Virus record (IMG/VR): IMGVR_UViG_3300002835_000697 | Span: 1 to 31,840 of that record | Direction: 5' to 3' (one strand) | DNA from: a virus | Length of the DNA stretch: 31,840 bases | Part shown: one piece after another, positions 10,245-31,332 of the stretch | How the letters are laid out: each line of letters opens with the position of its first letter | Position numbering within the stretch: position 1 is the stretch's first letter | Translations under genes and position numbers: made by a program | The notes under the pieces: generated by a model | What the model was told of the DNA's origin: nothing | Database searches by the model: none | The model's input: only the letters and a program-made list of their open reading frames with translations

Positions 10245-10399
10245 TTGCTTGCCATTGCTTCTAATCCAGCCAAGAAGTCTGCTTTCGCATGTTCTGGCAA
10301 ACGAGCGTAAAACTTCTTTGCTCGACGGTATGCGCGTTTTGACATTGCATTTTCAGGTTGGAGGATTTGTCTCAGTTTTTTTGCTTTTTTATTGTTCAT
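10241..10399 (-). CDS. Small basic protein, last gene of operon
   Basis: A 52-residue ORF. It starts Met-Asn-Asn-Lys-Lys-Ala-Lys-Lys and continues with a basic helical part (SKRAYRRAKKFYARLPE) and an alanine-rich end. The ATG overlaps the stop of the GNAT gene in an ATGA arrangement (10396-10399), and the frame is open from there to a TAA, filling an otherwise empty 150-base gap. I recognise no family; the high Lys/Arg content would suit binding to nucleic acid, which is a guess. Its last 4 bases overlap the convergent tail gene. Confidence 0.7.
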   Translation of the reverse strand: MNNKKAKKLRQILQPENAMSKRAYRRAKKFYARLPEHAKADFLAGLEAMASN

Positions 10400-10851
10400 A
10401 GTTTGCTAATATATGTTTCGGTATCTTTAAGGAAGCCCATTTTATGGTAGAATGATTTTACTTTTTGGTGATAAGGATTGTTGACTGCCGTAGACATGGT
10501 GATGTATTTGCACCCCATTTGTCGAGCAGTCTCAGTTGCTGTTTTAAACAGTTTATAACCAGCTTTTGGATTCTTAGATAGCCACAAAAATTCGTGAATT
10601 ATTTCTTCATTGAATTTTGGGCATCGAACTTTCTCAAAAGCGATCATTGCGTCAAATTTATCGCCTTGTAAATTTCCCCACACTAATAAATCCCACGCCA
10701 AAATAGATGGATGAGAGAAGTTAGCCTTGATAGTCTCTGGGCTGTGAGCTACCAAGGCGTGACCTTCATACAAATCATGTTGTTTAAAAAGCTCATACAT
10801 ATCGTCAATAAGCTTTTCAAATTCTACAGGATTTGTAATACGCTTAATCAT
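10396..10851 (-). CDS. GNAT-family N-acetyltransferase
   Basis: A 151-residue acetyltransferase of the GNAT fold. The C-terminal NNPYHQKVKSFYHKMGFL is the typical strand-helix end of the family, preceded by a helix/strand unit (KAGYKLFKTATETARQMGC, then KYITMST). The acetyl-CoA pyrophosphate loop (usually Q-x-x-G-x-G/A) is weak here, reduced to NPKAGYKLF. It should transfer an acetyl group from acetyl-CoA to an amine; the substrate is unknown. The gene lies between a possible DNA-annealing protein (8-base overlap) and the 52-residue protein, downstream of glycosyltransferase genes, so acetylation of a sugar or of a virion or host protein is conceivable. Confidence 0.85.
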   Translation of the reverse strand: MIKRITNPVEFEKLIDDMYELFKQHDLYEGHALVAHSPETIKANFSHPSILAWDLLVWGNLQGDKFDAMIAFEKVRCPKFNEEIIHEFLWLSKNPKAGYKLFKTATETARQMGCKYITMSTAVNNPYHQKVKSFYHKMGFLKDTETYISKL

Positions 10852-11608
10852 TGATTTTCTTAATCAAGACACGCGCTGTCTTGGCTGGAATATCAGTGAA
10901 GCCGCTCCAGTTTTTAGCATCTGCCAAAAGATCAAGAGTAGTTGTGTCATTCGCTTCTGTAGCGTTAGTCCACATATTGCGGAGATACACTTTGAAGTCT
11001 TCGAACGAGAAGATTTTAAGCTTGTCGTTTACATTCTTTTCCAAAGCTCCCTGTGGCGTGATAGGAATAACGCTGGATTGCACAAGGTCAGAAATATCAA
11101 CCGCTTTGTTTTTAGACTTGTCGATTTCATCAGCCCCGACAATATGAATATTGAGGAAGTTGCGAACGCAACGAACGAATGCACGATTACACGCGATGGT
11201 TTCTAGGAACTTCAAGCAGAAGTTGTCAGTATTTGCTTCTGTGGCATTTGCAACATCTTCAAAAACAACTTCTTCATTGCTTGTTTCAAAATTACCAATC
11301 CATTCGATACAGCACAGTGCTGTAACATAATTTGGCGCTTCATGTCTGATGTTATAACGAACACTCTTAAAGCCTCGTAAGCGAGCCAACTCTTTGATGC
11401 CGCCAAGCATAATAAGCAATTGCTTATCGTCCAAGCCTTCAATAGATGTCGGAACGGATTGTTTCCGAATCTCAAAGTAATCTTTATTTGGGTAAAGAAA
11501 CTGTGGATCAATCATAGCTCGCCAATCGACGAAGCCGTCTGGGGTGAACTTGTATTCTTTGTTTTCGATGAGTCCATCGGGACCTCTTGTTATTTTATTT
11601 TGTGTCAT
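10844..11608 (-). CDS. Possible phage ssDNA-annealing-type protein
   Basis: A 254-residue protein. The central section (LLIMLGGIKELARLRGF, later FLETIACNRAFVRCVRNFLNI at ~132-152) resembles the 'TRA.nRAlR' helix seen in phage single-strand annealing proteins of the RecT/Erf/Rad52-like groups. A C-terminal helical part (~205-254) could be a separate domain. That resemblance is suggestive only. If correct, it would anneal single strands during recombination-dependent replication, and the first gene of this operon (14634-15116) might be its ssDNA-binding partner. It overlaps the GT9 half-gene by 14 bases and the GNAT gene by 8. There is no Shine-Dalgarno, so coupling is likely. Confidence 0.5.
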   Translation of the reverse strand: MTQNKITRGPDGLIENKEYKFTPDGFVDWRAMIDPQFLYPNKDYFEIRKQSVPTSIEGLDDKQLLIMLGGIKELARLRGFKSVRYNIRHEAPNYVTALCCIEWIGNFETSNEEVVFEDVANATEANTDNFCLKFLETIACNRAFVRCVRNFLNIHIVGADEIDKSKNKAVDISDLVQSSVIPITPQGALEKNVNDKLKIFSFEDFKVYLRNMWTNATEANDTTTLDLLADAKNWSGFTDIPAKTARVLIKKIND

Positions 11609-12758
11609 AGAGATAGAAATGGTTTAATTCGCTAAGAAGCAACTCATTATCTTCTATGACGAGGTTCTTGTCAAGAATATTTTTGTCTTTTTTCCAATGA
11701 TAGGTGCTGGGGTATTTTTTGCCGCGAGAAATGATCGTTTTATTGGAGTGAAAAAATGACTGGTTAAAAGTGATTTTTTTATCTTTTAAAATAGACTTAT
11801 CAGCAGTGGCATAAACTTGCACGTTGGAATTGAAATACTTATTACGAATCGTTGGAAGAATCGACACATCTTTAACCAAAAGATTGATGGTAATTCCTAG
11901 ACCGCTAATATAGTTGAGGTAATCATCAGAAATAACACTTTCCTCATTTACTAGAAAAGTAATATTCTTTAATTTGCCGCGAAGTTTCTGGATGAATTGA
12001 TGGGGGATCATCTTCTCTGTAAAGAATGAGAACGATTGCAGATACTCGCACCACGTTTCTACATACGAAAAAGAGTCAAGATAATCGAGTCTCATGAACC
12101 AGTGTTTCTCTGGCATTCCTGGCATTTGCGCAAAAAAGTCTGGAACCAACTCGAAAACAGAATGATGGTAAAAATCACCAAGGAAACGAGTTTTGAGCGG
12201 AATAGATTTTTCGGGCGTAAATTTTTTAATAATCGCATTTGCTATATCTTCTGGTAAAATTTTGTTGATTGAATCTTGTTGATCTACAGCGTTGAAGCTA
12301 GGCTTGACAGCCCAAGGCGCTTCGATGTTTGTTTTGTTTGAACTCCAGTAGCCATCAGAACAGGCGGCGTAAGAATCGCCAAATAATGTGACAATAGGAA
12401 TATCATTGGCGCTAGCATAATGCATAAGAGCGTCATTGCCACCGATATGCACTAAACTATTCTTTACGATATATGCCTGTTTTTTGAAATCAAGATCAAA
12501 GATCATTTCATCTACTGACGATAGTTTCTGTGATTTTGAAGAACCGATTTGAATAATCTTAATCGACTGCTTGCTCAAAAACGAACGCACAGTATCAAAC
12601 ACAATATCAAAATACTTATACTGCTTCGACTGAACTTGTGGCTCTACCGATACGGTAATATATTTTTCTGGAATGACTGGAAAGAAATGTTCCGCCAAAA
12701 CAGGCTTGCCAATTTTCACGCCAAGATTTTTGGCATATTCTTCTATTAGGTGACTCAT
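11595..12758 (-). CDS. C-terminal half of a GT9 (heptosyltransferase-like) glycosyltransferase plus unknown domain
   Basis: A 387-residue protein. Residues ~1-180 match the second Rossmann half of GT9 (ADP-heptose:LPS heptosyltransferase-like) enzymes: YITVSVEPQ strand, IIQIGSS, then the sugar-nucleotide site HIGGNDALMHYASANDIPIV and TLFGDS (~104-128). The first Rossmann half is missing and is instead found at the C-terminus of the preceding gene product (residues ~523-628). Residues ~195-387 form an extra domain that I do not recognise. The ATG overlaps the upstream TGA in ATGA (12755-12758), so both halves are probably made in comparable amounts and assemble as a split GT-B enzyme. The donor and acceptor are not known. 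Confidence 0.75.
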   Translation of the reverse strand: MSHLIEEYAKNLGVKIGKPVLAEHFFPVIPEKYITVSVEPQVQSKQYKYFDIVFDTVRSFLSKQSIKIIQIGSSKSQKLSSVDEMIFDLDFKKQAYIVKNSLVHIGGNDALMHYASANDIPIVTLFGDSYAACSDGYWSSNKTNIEAPWAVKPSFNAVDQQDSINKILPEDIANAIIKKFTPEKSIPLKTRFLGDFYHHSVFELVPDFFAQMPGMPEKHWFMRLDYLDSFSYVETWCEYLQSFSFFTEKMIPHQFIQKLRGKLKNITFLVNEESVISDDYLNYISGLGITINLLVKDVSILPTIRNKYFNSNVQVYATADKSILKDKKITFNQSFFHSNKTIISRGKKYPSTYHWKKDKNILDKNLVIEDNELLLSELNHFYLYDTK

Positions 12759-14641
12759 TGTAAATCGAATTGAATTTTATCTTTGCCGTTGTGAATGTAG
12801 CAGATGTTCTTTTGGGTAGTTGTTGTTGGCATAAATGCTAGGTCGAAATAACCTTTATGAGCGCCAGCTCCCTCTAAAATAAATGAATTCTCCAACATTT
12901 CAGAATATAAAATACATTTGTGAACAAAACGGTTATCCTCAATCAGCGGGAAATACTCTTGCCGTGTGGCGAAGTAGATGTTGTGCTGTGGATATTGCTT
13001 ATGCAAGTTTTCCATAAGACCGTTCAGCAAAAGAATATCAGATTCTGTTCCTTGCGCTAGAACGCAAATACGTCTGCCTTCGTCATCTTTATCAAGAACG
13101 CTTTCAAATTCTACAGGCTTTTGTTGTTGCTGCAAGCAGACATTGCGAAAATGATTGTGCATTTGTTCGCGATTGATTTCTTGCTGTAGTTTGTTTTTCC
13201 ATATTTTGAACGAAGTGTGATTTTCGTCAACTGATTCGCCAAGCATTTCCTTATGCAAAGAGATGATAAAGTCTTTTTCATCTGCTTCAAAATTAGGCTT
13301 GTGATCAGCATTGAATCGAGAGGGAGGATTGTCAAAGTCGTAATCAACTTCTGGCATAGAATCAATGAGAGATTCAAGCTCTTCACCAATCGCTTCAATA
13401 GAACAATAGTCCACTACAAATTGACGAGCTTTAATACCAATCGCTGCACGTTCAATCGAGGGCATATTATAAACAGTGAGTAACTGTTCGGCAATATGAT
13501 CGGGATCGGTAGATGCTTTGATGAATTGAGTTCCAGGCTCTCTATACTCTGCCCAATTAAGAGGCAAGCCGCCGCTTTCTTCTGTGCAATACTCTTCGCC
13601 GCAAGAATAGTTTGTGACGAGTGTGATAAGCTCTGTGAGTTTTGCTTCTTGAATTGGAATCTCTTGACCGCCACTTGTAAATGGATGGCAGTATACGTCC
13701 ATAAGGTTGTAGATTTCATTCAGTTGAGCTTCACTTACTCCTTGGTTAATGTTTGTAGTGCTTACCGTTCTTTTACCACCACATGCTGGGCAGTCGCGAT
13801 CTTGCCCCATAAATGGCGCAATGAAATAGCTCTTACATTGTTGGCAGAAATAAGTGGTGAGAATGTCTTTGTTGTCAATGCCCTTTTCTTGCAAGAGAGT
13901 TGGAATGTCCCATCCCTCTGACCAGTGAGTGTGCAACAAGAGTTTAGCATGAGGAACTTGTTGTTTAAACTTTTTAAAACCTTCCAGCAAATTAGGAACG
14001 CTTTTTCTAAGCTGATTTCTAAACACAAAGCCCACAATATATTCATTAGACAAATTAAACTTCTGACGCAATGCAGCGCGTCTATGATCATCCATTCTAT
14101 AGAATTGATTTACGTCTAAGCTTCCTCTGAGAGTTTTAATATGATTATAACCCATTCGTTGGAATGCTTTTTCCGCGAAAGAAGACCATACATAGTAATG
14201 TTTGATTTTGGGCGCAGCATCAATAGCTGATTGTAGAATTGGTAAGCTGTCAAGCGTAGTCCAAATCATGGAGTTCACTTTATTCCACCAAGGCTTTTCG
14301 TAGAAGCCGTCGAATGCCCAAATGTCCTCGATGCCAATATAAACATCAGGACGCACAGTATTGATAACATCATCAATACCAAAAGCACCATACGCAGCTT
14401 GACGTTGCTTGTGTTGGTCTTGATTGATTTCTGCCATCTTTTGAACATCTGGCAAAGAGCCATAAGTAGTCCATGGAGTGCTATCAGTTTCGGGGCAGCG
14501 TCTCATCAAGCCATTAGCAAGCTCAAAGATTTCATACTTGCCTGTATTAAACAGATAGCGCAAGATATTCTTTTTGTGCTTACCAAAGCCTGTGAAAGCT
14601 TTGCAGAAATTACTATGTATGAGAACTTTCTTTTTAGTCAT
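12755..14641 (-). CDS. GT4-type glycosyltransferase with zinc ribbon and a GT9 N-half at its C-terminus
   Basis: A 628-residue protein. Residues ~1-420 resemble a GT-B fold, GT4-family glycosyltransferase: a glycine loop near NFCKAFTGFGKHKKN, the second-domain start IVGFVFRNQLRKSVPNLLEG, and the donor-site region FTSGGQEIPIQEAKL (321-335). Of the usual EX7E pair only Glu332 remains; the first position is Gly324. A zinc-ribbon motif, Cys266-x2-Cys269-x14-Cys284-x2-Cys287, is inserted in the second Rossmann domain. Residues ~425-520 are a charged linker. Residues ~523-628 look like the first Rossmann half of a GT9 enzyme (RRICVLAQGTESDILLLNGL, then IYFATRQEYFPLI), which stops where the next gene begins. 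It overlaps its neighbours by 8 and 4 bases. Target: virion, host surface or DNA, unknown. Confidence 0.8.
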   Translation of the reverse strand: MTKKKVLIHSNFCKAFTGFGKHKKNILRYLFNTGKYEIFELANGLMRRCPETDSTPWTTYGSLPDVQKMAEINQDQHKQRQAAYGAFGIDDVINTVRPDVYIGIEDIWAFDGFYEKPWWNKVNSMIWTTLDSLPILQSAIDAAPKIKHYYVWSSFAEKAFQRMGYNHIKTLRGSLDVNQFYRMDDHRRAALRQKFNLSNEYIVGFVFRNQLRKSVPNLLEGFKKFKQQVPHAKLLLHTHWSEGWDIPTLLQEKGIDNKDILTTYFCQQCKSYFIAPFMGQDRDCPACGGKRTVSTTNINQGVSEAQLNEIYNLMDVYCHPFTSGGQEIPIQEAKLTELITLVTNYSCGEEYCTEESGGLPLNWAEYREPGTQFIKASTDPDHIAEQLLTVYNMPSIERAAIGIKARQFVVDYCSIEAIGEELESLIDSMPEVDYDFDNPPSRFNADHKPNFEADEKDFIISLHKEMLGESVDENHTSFKIWKNKLQQEINREQMHNHFRNVCLQQQQKPVEFESVLDKDDEGRRICVLAQGTESDILLLNGLMENLHKQYPQHNIYFATRQEYFPLIEDNRFVHKCILYSEMLENSFILEGAGAHKGYFDLAFMPTTTTQKNICYIHNGKDKIQFDLQ

Positions 14642-15116
14642 CGGAGCGGTTTTGCATTTGAGCGTTTGAGCGAGCTTCGTAAAGTTTTTGCAAAATTACT
14701 TTGCAGAACTCACGAATTGCGTAAGCTTCTCCAGGTTCAATACCAATACCAAACTTCAAAGCTGAATTCTTAGTAATGGAAAATGAAAAAGCTTTAGTGC
14801 CATCATTTTTCTGATAAGGCTTAAACGAGATGCTAGTCTTATTTGTTTCGTGGCTATGAAATGCTTTGTATTCAGAATAGTTTTCAATAGCGTTGATGAT
14901 GCCGCCAACTTCAAATTCGTTTAGTTTGATTACTACTGTTTTTTCTGGGTTTTTTGCATTCTCAGCAAAGGAACCGTTTTTTGTTTTTTCATCCCATGAA
15001 TGCTGCATAATAGCGTTGACATATAGGCAAGGGTCTTTGAATTTACCAGTAGTGCCAAGACGGAAAGCGAATGCGCATCCGCTCGATTTTGAATTGGGTT
15101 TATAGAGTTGAATCAT
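14634..15116 (-). CDS. Possible ssDNA-binding protein, first gene of operon
   Basis: A 160-residue protein. It has alternating short strands (CAFAFRL, LYVNAIMQ, VVIKLNEFEVGGII, TSISFKPY, KAFSFSITK) followed by a C-terminal helix (GEAYAIREFCKVILQKLYE) and a polar, acid-ending tail. A compact beta-rich body with one helix and a flexible tail suits PC4/whirly-type or phage ssDNA-binding proteins, but no signature proves it, so the call is tentative. It leads the six-gene leftward operon, with AGG two bases before the ATG. It shares a divergent control region containing a palindrome with the rightward gene at 15170. Confidence 0.5.
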   Translation of the reverse strand: MIQLYKPNSKSSGCAFAFRLGTTGKFKDPCLYVNAIMQHSWDEKTKNGSFAENAKNPEKTVVIKLNEFEVGGIINAIENYSEYKAFHSHETNKTSISFKPYQKNDGTKAFSFSITKNSALKFGIGIEPGEAYAIREFCKVILQKLYEARSNAQMQNRSDD

Positions 15117-15169: not shown

Positions 15170-15817
15170 GTGTCCTATCTAAATCATAATATTCCCACGA
15201 TTACTTGCCTACTACGCAATGAATATCTTTTTAATCACGAAAAAGGACATGGTGAGTATACTTCATGCGATGTCCATTCTGTAACGTCAATTGAGAAGAG
15301 AGTTCCTCTATTTGAAGCGTTCTTGACGAATGGAGTAAACTGGACTCGCAGACCTATTACAGCATTCTGTTGGAAGCCTTGCGATCCAGTGCCATTGGAA
15401 CATGCAATGTATTGGGATTGTTTTAGTCCTTATGTTGATGTTCAGGTTCGCACACGAATGAAAGGTCTGAGAGCTTTACTCATCACGCCGCAAAATACCA
15501 AAGAAGCTGGAGAGTATATGTTCACGCTTGATTGGGGATGGGAGAATAAGAGTATCTTGGACACCAATTTTTCTGAAACACCAGAACATAAATGCGCTCA
15601 TGTATTCAAAATGGACAATGGTAACTTTTATGCTTACCCAAACAATCGCATTGTGTGGCACGATAATGCGTGGGTTGATAAGCCTATTGACAAAAATCCT
15701 GGATATAAGATCGACTTGACAGTATATAGCGTCGAAAATAAACGCACACTGTTTACTGATTATAGCTACATGACAGAATTCACCACTCAACCAAAAGAAG
15801 AAAATGTCACTCACTAA
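15170..15817 (+). CDS. Hypothetical protein, operon leader
   Basis: A 215-residue protein starting at GTG (the only early start; an ATG two bases before it is quickly closed). Sequence landmarks are HEKGHGEYTSCDVHSV (~23-38), NGVNWTRRPITAFCW (~54-68) and a tryptophan-rich DWGWENK (~119-125). It has no membrane segment or signal peptide, and I do not recognise the family. The mix of strands with conserved-looking His, Cys and Trp residues suggests a compact soluble domain. Its end overlaps the SET-domain gene by 14 bases, so the two are likely made together and may share a task, upstream of the fibre genes. Confidence 0.65.
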   Translation: MSYLNHNIPTITCLLRNEYLFNHEKGHGEYTSCDVHSVTSIEKRVPLFEAFLTNGVNWTRRPITAFCWKPCDPVPLEHAMYWDCFSPYVDVQVRTRMKGLRALLITPQNTKEAGEYMFTLDWGWENKSILDTNFSETPEHKCAHVFKMDNGNFYAYPNNRIVWHDNAWVDKPIDKNPGYKIDLTVYSVENKRTLFTDYSYMTEFTTQPKEENVTH

Positions 15818-27376: not shown

Positions 27377-29935
27377 TTATTTTAGCTCTGAGAGCTTCAT
27401 GTAGATTTTATCTTCTAAAAGGACGAGCTTGTCAAGCATAATAATGTCGTTATTTTTTTGACCAACACCAATTACCACTTCTCCTTTTTTGGGAATCTTT
27501 TTACCAGAACTTAGGAAGTTCGTAAGTTTCGGCTCTCTGCTGTTGTCCATAAGTAGCATTGAAATGTTACCACGCTCATCAGCAATGTCAATGCGAGCAT
27601 ATTTGTTTCCATTGGCGCTAGTCCTAGAAATGGAATCCACGACAAACCCGACAGAACATACGGTGGTATTGTTACTGACTGAAGATAAATCATGCGAAGA
27701 AACAAAATGAGACTGACTAGCTTCTTTGAAAACTTCGCGAATGTTTTGTGAATAGCTGTAACCAAGAAGCTTGCTCTCAAAGAACCAGTTAGCATACTTG
27801 ATGTGTTGTTTGTTTTGGTCATAGATTTGTCTATAGGGTTGATATTTCGTTTTGAATGTTTCAAAGCGCTTTTCAGAAAAGATGGCTTTGTTGTCATCGC
27901 CAACTGCTTTGGTTTTTACGGAGTCGCTAATGCTTTCCAAAAGATTGAAATTATACTTTTCACCCAAAGTGATCAGGTTTCTTTTCTCTCTATCTGTGAG
28001 GATATTAAATGTTTGTGCTTCCAAAACTAATCGGCAGCGATCTTTCTCAACGAAGTGATCGAGCAAACCAGCTTGAGCAAGTCCAGACATTAAGCCAATA
28101 TTCACACCAGCTTGTTTTGCCGCCATAAACACCTCATACTTGTTTTCGAATTCTCCTTGACGAAACTCTAGCAATGCTTCTAGGGACTTTGTAGAAACGC
28201 CTTTGATCGTATTCAAACCGTAGCGAATATCTTTACCTTCAATCGAGAAGTCGATTTCAGATTTGGTAAGACTAGGAGGCAAAAGCTCAATGCCAAATGA
28301 CGAAAGCTCTTGGGAAATCTTTAGGATTTCTTCATGAGGACTTGGCTCGAATTGCGCAAACTTCAAAAGGCTCAAGAAGAACTGTTGAGGATAGTTGAAT
28401 TTGAGATACACAGTCGTAGCTGCAAGGTAGGCATAAGCCATAGAGTGCGACTTGTTGAACGAGTAATTTGCAGAGTCTTCGGCGACCTTCCACAGAATAT
28501 CTCCAATGATAGGATCAAGACCGTTCTCTTGGATTTTTTGAGCGATCTTATCTTTCCACTCTGCCATTTTATCGACTTTTTTCTTGCCAACAATTCGACG
28601 CAATTGTTCTGATTCGTCAAGATTGAATCCGACCTTTACTGCCATCTTCATCAACTGTTCTTGAAACAAAGGAATGTTGCCAGTGTATGAGAGAACGTCA
28701 TCGAAGAACGGATGGATAGATTGAGACTCTCCTGTTCTTACATATTCTGCATACTTGTCGAGGAAGTCTAATGCTCCAGGTCTTGCAATGGCGACTACCG
28801 CAGAAAGCTGCTCTAGGTTGCGTGGCGCGACTTTCTGTGCGACTTTGAAGTTGGTATCAGCTTCAATCTGAAACAGACCTTTAGGAGCTTGCAGCGTTTG
28901 CAGTGCTGCATAAATAGAAGGATGCTCTACATCAATGTCGTGAGCTTTGATGCCAATCTGTTGGCAAACGTCATTAACTACCGACAGTGTGCGCAGCCCA
29001 AGAATATCGAACTTGACCATCAACTCTGCTACGTTGTTCATATCATATCCCGAAACTAACGCTTCTTCACCAGTATTCTGCACAGGCATAATCTCTTCTA
29101 GTGGATAGTAGCTAATAGCAATACCAGATGGATGAACGCCGACATTCTTGTTGAGACCTTCGATCTTTTTGGAGATGCGATAGATGCGTTTGTTCTTGTT
29201 CGCGAATTCTTTGAAGACTTCACTTTCTTCATACGCTACGCCAAGCTTCGCTACCTTGCCAAACTTTTTGGGAATTGAATCACTAATGATATTAACTTCC
29301 GACTCTGACATCTCACCAACAATCTTGCCACACTCTTTAATGCACAGCTTGCTGCTTAGAGTGTTGAGGGTTAGAATCTTGGAAGTTCTGCCAGCATATT
29401 TTTTATTAATATAATCTAGCACTTCTTGTCGTCTATCGTAGCTAATGTCGTTGTCAACATCGCACAGTAGCGAGCCATCCAAAAAGATTTCGCCGTTGTG
29501 TTCGATTTTTCTTGCACGGCTTTTAGAAACGAATCGCTCGAAGAATAGATCGTGCTTGATTGGATCAATATTAGTTACGCCAATGGCATACAACACCAAA
29601 CTTCCAGGAGCTGAGCCACGACCCGCACCTGTAGGAATGCCTGTTTCGTGACAGAAATTAATAATATCCCAATTCAACAAAACATAATCAATAAAGCCCA
29701 AATCTTCAAAGATAGACAATTCCATCTTGAGACGCTCAAAGTATTTTTCTTTGTTTGAAAATTCAAGAATGCCTCGTTTTTTCACACCTTCAAAACAAAT
29801 GCGGCGTAAGAATTCAAAGTTAGAAATGCTATCGGGAATTCCCAGCTCTTGATAGTAGCGCTGTTCGATTTGGATTTTAGGAAGTTTTACTCCTGCTGGA
29901 AATGGGGATTCGTAATGTGAGAATTGTTCAATCAT
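27377..29935 (-). CDS. dnaE: DNA polymerase III alpha subunit lacking the PHP domain
   Basis: An 852-residue C-family replicative polymerase. It begins just where the PHP domain of bacterial DnaE ends. Conserved blocks in order: GAGRGSAPGSLV (103-114), catalytic aspartates in CDVDND (Asp159, Asp161) and VKFDILGLRTL (Asp310), fingers GLFQIEAD (353-360) and VAIARPGAL, IPLFQEQLMKMA (421-432), SANYSFNKSHSMAYAYL (488-504). Then come a helix-hairpin-helix region (~570-600) and a C-terminal OB fold (TVCSVGFVVDSISRT, ~758-770). The OB position is that of DnaE, not PolC. It should copy the phage genome. It overlaps the exonuclease gene by 4 bases (ATGA), and the PHP-like gene lies before that. Confidence 0.93.
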   Translation of the reverse strand: MIEQFSHYESPFPAGVKLPKIQIEQRYYQELGIPDSISNFEFLRRICFEGVKKRGILEFSNKEKYFERLKMELSIFEDLGFIDYVLLNWDIINFCHETGIPTGAGRGSAPGSLVLYAIGVTNIDPIKHDLFFERFVSKSRARKIEHNGEIFLDGSLLCDVDNDISYDRRQEVLDYINKKYAGRTSKILTLNTLSSKLCIKECGKIVGEMSESEVNIISDSIPKKFGKVAKLGVAYEESEVFKEFANKNKRIYRISKKIEGLNKNVGVHPSGIAISYYPLEEIMPVQNTGEEALVSGYDMNNVAELMVKFDILGLRTLSVVNDVCQQIGIKAHDIDVEHPSIYAALQTLQAPKGLFQIEADTNFKVAQKVAPRNLEQLSAVVAIARPGALDFLDKYAEYVRTGESQSIHPFFDDVLSYTGNIPLFQEQLMKMAVKVGFNLDESEQLRRIVGKKKVDKMAEWKDKIAQKIQENGLDPIIGDILWKVAEDSANYSFNKSHSMAYAYLAATTVYLKFNYPQQFFLSLLKFAQFEPSPHEEILKISQELSSFGIELLPPSLTKSEIDFSIEGKDIRYGLNTIKGVSTKSLEALLEFRQGEFENKYEVFMAAKQAGVNIGLMSGLAQAGLLDHFVEKDRCRLVLEAQTFNILTDREKRNLITLGEKYNFNLLESISDSVKTKAVGDDNKAIFSEKRFETFKTKYQPYRQIYDQNKQHIKYANWFFESKLLGYSYSQNIREVFKEASQSHFVSSHDLSSVSNNTTVCSVGFVVDSISRTSANGNKYARIDIADERGNISMLLMDNSREPKLTNFLSSGKKIPKKGEVVIGVGQKNNDIIMLDKLVLLEDKIYMKLSELK

Positions 29936-30561
29936 AGATCAATGTTAAAAATTTGTTTTTTGAAGATTTCGAATGTCATCTCTACATCGTAGAGGCTATC
30001 GTGAAGTTTTTTAGGGTCATGAGGAATGTCGTAGTATTTAAGCATGAATGCTTGACTGGTTTTTAAACCCTTTTCGCGAATATGCAACATCTTATATTGC
30101 CATGATAAGAAATTTTCTTTATCGGGTAAGATATTCTTGAATATGGCAGTGGATATTGATTTTGTGTCAATGACTCTTTTGACATAAGAGTGATCGCTAT
30201 CCATGCCAATCATTTTACGCCAGACGTTGATCATATAAACATCAAAGCCAAGAAAGTTCTGTCCAATAACTAAAAACGATGGATCGTAAAGATACTTGGA
30301 AAGTTTTTCGAATACCTGAATAGGATGTTCGGCTTTTGAATAATAATGGTCTTTGTCAAAGCCTGTAATTCTGGCAGCATCGGGAGATACGTTGATATTG
30401 TCCCAGTGAATAAAGTGATCATGCTTGGAGACGATTGTATTGCCACGGCAAACAGTCCATGAAGCTTGCCACGGTCTGGAAGAGACGAGGTTGAGTCCCT
30501 CTGTCTCTGTATCTAAAACTATGTAGCTTTGATCTTTTTTGAATCTAAGTAGGTCGTTCAT
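29932..30561 (-). CDS. dnaQ: DnaQ-like 3'-5' exonuclease (DEDDh)
   Basis: A 209-residue proofreading-type exonuclease. The DEDDh motifs are intact: Exo I VLDTETEGL (Asp17, Glu19), Exo II GQNFLGFDVYMI (Asp107) and Exo III HDSLYD (His187-x4-Asp192). Such proteins remove mispaired 3' ends using two metal ions. The gene sits between the PHP-like and polymerase genes with 4-base ATGA overlaps on both sides, so it is very likely the proofreading subunit of this phage polymerase. There is no helicase or extra domain. Confidence 0.9.
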   Translation of the reverse strand: MNDLLRFKKDQSYIVLDTETEGLNLVSSRPWQASWTVCRGNTIVSKHDHFIHWDNINVSPDAARITGFDKDHYYSKAEHPIQVFEKLSKYLYDPSFLVIGQNFLGFDVYMINVWRKMIGMDSDHSYVKRVIDTKSISTAIFKNILPDKENFLSWQYKMLHIREKGLKTSQAFMLKYYDIPHDPKKLHDSLYDVEMTFEIFKKQIFNIDL

Positions 30562-31325
30562 GGTTGGTTCATTATTGTTTTAAGTTTTTGTTCGTATTGT
30601 TCCCAGCAAAATTCATCGCTGCCAAAGTGTTCTAAGTTGGGGCAAGAGAGTGTCGCTTGCTTGCCAAATTTGCGGTCGCTGAGAATCTTGTATGTCTGAA
30701 AGGCATCGCAGTCAGATTTGTGCTTATAAAAAATAGATTGCACTAATTGAATTGATGCATTTGGCATGGTATCTCGCGCATAACGATGCACAGCTTTCTT
30801 GATTAGTTCATCAAATGGAAGTCCGTTAGACTCGATGAAAAATACTGGATTGAGCGGTGCGATATTTGGAATGCAATTGCCCATAATCATTTGATTATTA
30901 AAAATAAATGAGTCATAAAAAGGAACAGCTAACATCAGATCGTCGCTCCAGTGAGAGATTAGATCGTCATTAGAGATAGCGCCTTTTTGACTTGTATTGA
31001 TAAAAGAATACAATTGATTCAAAGCTTTGCAACCAGCGTCATTTTTGGCAAAGGCGATAAGCTTATGATTAGACTTGGTATTGGCATCAGAGTTGCAGCA
31101 TACGAATTTATAGCCGAAGTGTAATTGAATGCCTAGCTCTTTAGAAATTCTAAAGGCTTCGAAGAATCCAGTCATTGATTCCTCAACCAAGAAAAGGTTC
31201 TTCAAACCGCTTTCTTTAGCGATTGAAAAGATGCTATCAGAACCATCCGAAGTTTCTTTGTCGGGGTGCTGTAGCGTGAGAATCGACTTGCCTATCGAGA
31301 AGTGAGATGTAAATATAGGAATCAT
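30558..31325 (-). CDS. PHP-domain-like protein split from polymerase III alpha
   Basis: A 255-residue protein resembling the N-terminal PHP part of DnaE. Its order of elements is SHFSIGKSI (near the start), SIFSIAKESGLKNLFLVEES, the alpha/beta segment FEAFRISKELGIQLHFGYKF (~55-74) and HKLIAFAKNDAGCKALNQLYS (~89-109), in line with DnaE's 'gIkPIiG.E' and 'h.i.LAkn..GyknL.kL.S'. The metal-binding motifs look lost: HxH is TSH and the TDH motif is VEES. It is probably a structural partner of the polymerase and not a nuclease. I start at the ATG at 31325; a TTG three bases upstream is unneeded. It lies upstream of the exonuclease gene with ATGA coupling. Confidence 0.75.
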   Translation of the reverse strand: MIPIFTSHFSIGKSILTLQHPDKETSDGSDSIFSIAKESGLKNLFLVEESMTGFFEAFRISKELGIQLHFGYKFVCCNSDANTKSNHKLIAFAKNDAGCKALNQLYSFINTSQKGAISNDDLISHWSDDLMLAVPFYDSFIFNNQMIMGNCIPNIAPLNPVFFIESNGLPFDELIKKAVHRYARDTMPNASIQLVQSIFYKHKSDCDAFQTYKILSDRKFGKQATLSCPNLEHFGSDEFCWEQYEQKLKTIMNQP

Positions 31326-31332
31326 CAAGAAG

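Follow-up and report, generated by a model that had tools for sequence, protein, structure and literature searches.

Division of one glycosyltransferase (GT) of the GT-B fold between two proteins has previously been described for MurG-like enzymes. Alg14/Alg13 and the bacterial EpsE/EpsF are split into the same two domains, and fused as well as split forms exist (PMC4973528, PMC8993221). These pairs are the closest precedents for two overlapping genes, here named P1 and P2, in the viral contig IMGVR_UViG_3300002835_000697 of IMG/VR; the whole stretch of 31,840 nucleotides (nt) that was analysed is referred to as the window. P1 (12755–14641, minus strand) encodes 628 amino acids (aa) and P2 (11595–12758, minus strand) 387 aa. 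The open reading frame (ORF) call and the sequence give exactly the coordinates, lengths and ATGA stop/start overlap (12755–12758) of an earlier note on this DNA. As in Alg14/Alg13 and EpsE/EpsF, whose genes are adjacent in bacteria, one GT-B enzyme would be made as two proteins with the N- and C-terminal domains apart, the acceptor and donor domains of P1/P2 lying on separate polypeptides, as known here from sequence. However, the described pairs are MurG-like while P1 and P2 are GT9-related; their N-terminal partner is membrane-associated whereas the corresponding half of P1 is fused behind a complete GT4 enzyme, and P2 has an extra domain of ~200 residues. Among open-licence papers we found no description of a split GT9, of a GT9 half fused to a GT4 or of such a gene pair.

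The earlier note had read the last ~105 residues of P1 as the first Rossmann half of a heptosyltransferase-like enzyme and the beginning of P2 as the second, with the split at the ATGA between the two GT-B domains. Evidence from profiles, from fold prediction and from conservation agrees with a GT9 fold that is divided over two genes and has its first half fused to a GT4. The relatives form a family of uncultured aquatic phages (588 IMG/VR stretches match P1), and 184 distinct loci have both the P1 tail and P2, adjacent or near-adjacent in every one. A continuous ORF in related phages, which the earlier note had named as evidence to the contrary, was looked for and seen in 0 of the 184. The GT9 halves are separate in all of them and the break falls each time just ahead of the interdomain helix of P2, hence at the same protein position; in the window, too, P2 starts at the GT9 domain boundary. 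That all 184 distinct relatives are divided in this way is far beyond chance and, since none is fused, we speak of a split GT9-like enzyme and not of a plain member of GT9.

AlphaFold2 (AF2) models of the two proteins were built on 62 relatives, each chain being modelled separately. P2 was modelled with a mean predicted local distance difference test score (pLDDT) of 92.6 and a predicted template modelling score of 0.85. Its residues 2–182 superpose on residues 138–322 of Escherichia coli WaaC (Z 16.7, root mean square deviation 2.9, 153 residues), and residues 1–183 on heptosyltransferase II (128–348, Z 16.2); TibC is matched at 184–391 (Z 14.9). GT9 structures lead the list of structural matches, and MurG and the other split families are not among the matches listed. 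The P2 profile finds heptosyltransferase II with an E-value of 1e-6, while PF01075 reaches 14.0 bits on the window P2 against a cut-off of 22 and passes it in the relatives L061 (31.5 bits) and L047 (24.7 bits). According to these models and matches, P2 residues 1–184 (12207–12758, minus strand) are the second, donor-side Rossmann domain of a GT9 enzyme, from the domain boundary through the C-terminal end. Residues 185–387 (11598–12206) make up the extra alpha/beta domain, for which the AF2 model is confident and a search with a 34-member alignment gave no sequence relative in Pfam or the PDB.

The candidate acceptor-side half occupies P1 residues 522–628 (12758–13078, minus strand). From about residue 522 a beta-alpha Rossmann half is predicted, the last 11 residues being unstructured in the single-chain AF2 model. 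The best match of the tail profile in the PDB is a GT9 structure, although a weak one (3TOV residues 9–64, E 0.08); heptosyltransferase II is matched at residues 2–56 with E 0.79. The same profile recognizes the N-termini of bacterial one-chain GT9 proteins with up to 36 bits (L259 residues 19–77, L269 residues 3–66) and, when it is joined to that of P2 as the earlier note had proposed, the same cellular GT9 proteins are matched colinearly in both halves, for instance L259 at 19–77 and 188–348; the E-values of these searches refer to a very small ORF set. As single sequences, the tail of relative L229 alone covers positions 1–54 and P2 of L061 positions 246–338 of the 339-position NCBIfam heptosyltransferase II model TIGR02195. 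When P1 and P2 were joined artificially and run against Pfam, the GT9 match still stopped short of the tail: PF01075 covers the second half only, and the case for the tail therefore rests on the other profiles. Residue D535 aligns with the Gly-Asp of GT9 enzymes at the position of HepI D13 and is an aspartate in 71 of 78 diverse relatives. HepI D13 is a putative catalytic residue, and in GT9 the N domain is acceptor-side and the C domain donor-side (PMC9068772). Four converging lines, none of them overwhelming alone, support the assignment of the P1 tail as the putative other half of the GT9-like fold. P1/P2 resemble the GT9 heptosyltransferases WaaC, WaaF and TibC in having the two Rossmann halves, in the order of these and in where the boundary lies. 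The heptosyltransferases are single chains, whereas P1/P2 are two; the donor motif of P1/P2 is altered and no heptose substrate is known for them.

From the architecture, the split and its conservation we infer that the chains associate, that they would be catalytic together, and in which order the steps should follow. It is likely that P1 and P2 together form a GT9-type GT-B enzyme of two chains, with the acceptor half tethered to a full GT4. It counts in favour of this that, among 78 diverse relatives, a donor-side D persists in 59, an H in 52 and a K in 47. The overlap or, in relatives, a very short gap probably couples translation of P2 to that of P1. P1 would supply the acceptor-side Rossmann domain behind a linker and P2 the donor-side domain, which starts with the interdomain helix, the point at which the halves of single-chain GT9 enzymes are connected. 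P2 could then dock on the P1 tail and close the GT-B cleft, which would place the active site at the chain interface with D535 as the putative base and the nucleotide sugar bound by P2, and the GT4 on the P1 chain would perform a neighbouring transfer. The tether would bring the GT4 reaction and the GT9-like one together in a single particle, which suggests that a common acceptor receives two sugars in succession. More tentative, and in our estimation slightly short of evenly balanced, is the generalization that a large clade of uncultured phages has retained, through deep divergence, an obligately two-chain GT9-type enzyme that forms a two-reaction particle with its tethered GT4, to which some lineages would add a DUF6165 protein as third subunit.

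Several observations weigh against a two-chain GT9-type enzyme. The glycine of the D-x-G-x-x-H donor motif is not kept in P2, the D and H positions vary and the window P2 reads N108-D109 at the motif. P2 also diverges much faster than P1. In two relatives, L308 and L329, the tail is intact and the fragments, of ~48 kb each, contain no P2; their P2 may lie outside the fragments or be lost. Lastly, direct coupling over the 184 pairs, too few at an effective number of sequences of 133 for 492 columns, gave tail/GT9-C pairs among the top 50 at 0.9x expectation; tail/extra-domain pairs stood below this, at 0.22x. The lost glycine and the above counts for D and H leave room for a different donor or for a scaffold without catalysis. 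An explanation without a joint active site would give the P1 tail a docking or regulatory function in recruiting P2, or would take the GT9-like unit to be catalytically dead and a scaffold for the GT4. The degenerate and variable donor motif, the fast divergence of P2 and the tails without a P2 nearby all fit such a role, and dead GT9-like folds do serve as structural subunits, the chloroplast NDH subunit B1 being found among the P2 matches. On the other hand, an aspartate is kept at the putative catalytic position 535 in the great majority of relatives, which would not be expected of a mere docking domain and disfavours it. We regard this explanation as unlikely overall, though worth taking seriously.

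Separate genes would also permit swapping, and the extra domain of P2 is variable, so that the halves might be interchangeable modules, P2 being able to pair with proteins other than P1. This is very improbable: wherever a locus is long enough to judge, P2 is seen beside P1 only. The GT4-only relatives (L309–L314 and L332) have neither tail nor P2. Isolate phages and plasmids gave no usefully similar relative of P1 or P2, except for a GT4 match of 24.7% in Synechococcus phage S-EIV1, and for this reason no cultured system was found. The P1–P2 pair is also present on contigs binned into metagenome-assembled genomes of Flavobacteriales, Verrucomicrobiales, Lokiarchaeota, Woesebacteria and Halobacteriovorax (L160–L171); most likely these are phage contigs misplaced by binning, and they are no evidence of hosts.

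A programmed frameshift or stop read-through would yield a single fused protein, and many junctions do overlap or have their genes only a few bases apart. However, the junction DNA differs from relative to relative, with overlaps of up to 14 nt, TAATG, TAA followed by one to several bases and ATG, or gaps of up to 18 nt. Counted from the P1 stop, P2 starts at offsets between −14 and +18 with all three relative frames represented, and at least one distinct locus (L114) has an in-frame stop between the halves. Moreover, 350–640 nt lie between P1 and P2 in 22 distinct loci, mostly filled by an intact DUF6165 gene of 125–140 codons. We therefore give such recoding hardly any credence. That a single gene was broken by an indel, through a base error, an assembly error or recent pseudogene formation, is practically negligible: a sequencing indel can resemble the one-base shift at an ATGA junction, but the break sits at one protein position in all distinct relatives while their junction DNA differs, and contigs from other samples that are 98–100% identical to the window share its ATGA. 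Since the junction DNA varies and the 22 loci have 350–640 nt in between, base error and conserved frameshift or read-through are both ruled out; an indel at the junction, the other objection the earlier note had foreseen, is thereby excluded in practice.

The DUF6165 gene (PF19662) stands between the halves in ~20 distinct relatives, including L165 (6902–7306), L205 and L240. In the fetched phage loci DUF6165 is found only there (40 of 40, duplicates included), and its protein may be a third subunit. One cellular genome gave no support for a general tie between DUF6165 and GT9. In L045, ~360 nt separate P1 and P2 (6888–7250) and a DUF6165 gene is not recognisable.

P1 was modelled as a whole with a mean pLDDT of 87.3, and the matches in whole-P1 fold searches are filled by GT4. 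In the model, residues 1–433 (13343–14641, minus strand) are a complete GT-B fold of GT4 type, with a VIA-align Z of 31.9 over 354 residues for BshA (3mbo) and of 31.2 for the viral GT 3oy2. The phage family phrog_2170 (glycosyltransferase) is matched with E 1.4e-18 over nearly its whole profile, and PF00534 with E 8.4e-6, marginally short of the cut-off. P1 thus shares with BshA, PimB' and 3oy2 the complete fold (Z ~31) and differs from them in other features. E327 and E332, invariant in the 62 aligned relatives, are spaced as E327-x4-E332, apparently in place of the plain EX7E of GT4 enzymes. Residues 262–296 (13754–13858) form a zinc-ribbon-like CxxC...CxxC insert within the GT4 part, whose four cysteines (C266, C269, C284 and C287) are likewise invariant while its zinc-ribbon matches are weak. 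Finally, P1 carries the GT9 half at its C-terminal end, and this also sets it apart from phrog_2170, which covers the GT4 only. The two enzymes are connected by a helical, DUF4214-like linker (residues 434–521; 13079–13342), with helices at 455–506 in the AF2 model. PF13946 (DUF4214) is matched in relative L229 (26.0 bits against a cut-off of 23.2) and not in the window P1, and alignment shows the linker to be missing in short P1 forms of ~562 aa.

The locus places the division of a GT-B enzyme in another GT family than the MurG-like one, and in phages, with one GT9-like half additionally joined to a second glycosyltransferase. If active, P1/P2 would be a second independent case of a GT-B fold as a working heterodimer, and a ready system for asking why the split is kept. 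For virus annotation they call for caution, in that such pairs should be neither repaired automatically nor labelled as pseudogenes.

P1 and P2 belong to a packed set of genes on the window, in the order 160-aa gene, P1, P2, 254-aa gene and GNAT-like gene, with successive overlaps of 8, 4, 14 and 8 nt. As the neighbouring genes overlap in this way, gene overlap as such is ordinary at the locus. Conservation of the neighbours was counted over the first 80 fetched loci, all three genes lying on the minus strand of the window. A gene similar to the upstream 160-aa one (14634–15116) is found in 78 of the 80, as is one similar to the downstream 254-aa gene (10844–11608), which has no match in Pfam. 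The GNAT-like acetyltransferase gene (10396–10851; phrog_1249 acetyltransferase, E 3.2e-7) is present in 68. The 160-aa gene takes the position held in the distant relative L332 by an SSB gene, which precedes the GT4 gene there. In L308 the downstream genes include one for a cupin of the mannose-6-phosphate isomerase type and one for a possible nucleotidyltransferase, a hint that the sugars concerned may be those of a surface or of the virion; a neighbourhood of SSB and polymerase genes would allow other targets as well.

Elsewhere the window carries a lambda-type tail fibre J, tail assembly genes and DNA polymerase genes. Positions 15170–15817 strongly match the 'ferredoxin' phage family phrog_3704 (E 2.5e-52). 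DNA polymerase III alpha seems to be divided too, on the minus strand between 27377 and 31328: one piece (30558–31328) corresponds to positions 64–292 of phrog_405 and another (27377–29935) to positions 324–1068, and an exonuclease-subunit gene (29932–30561) sits between them.

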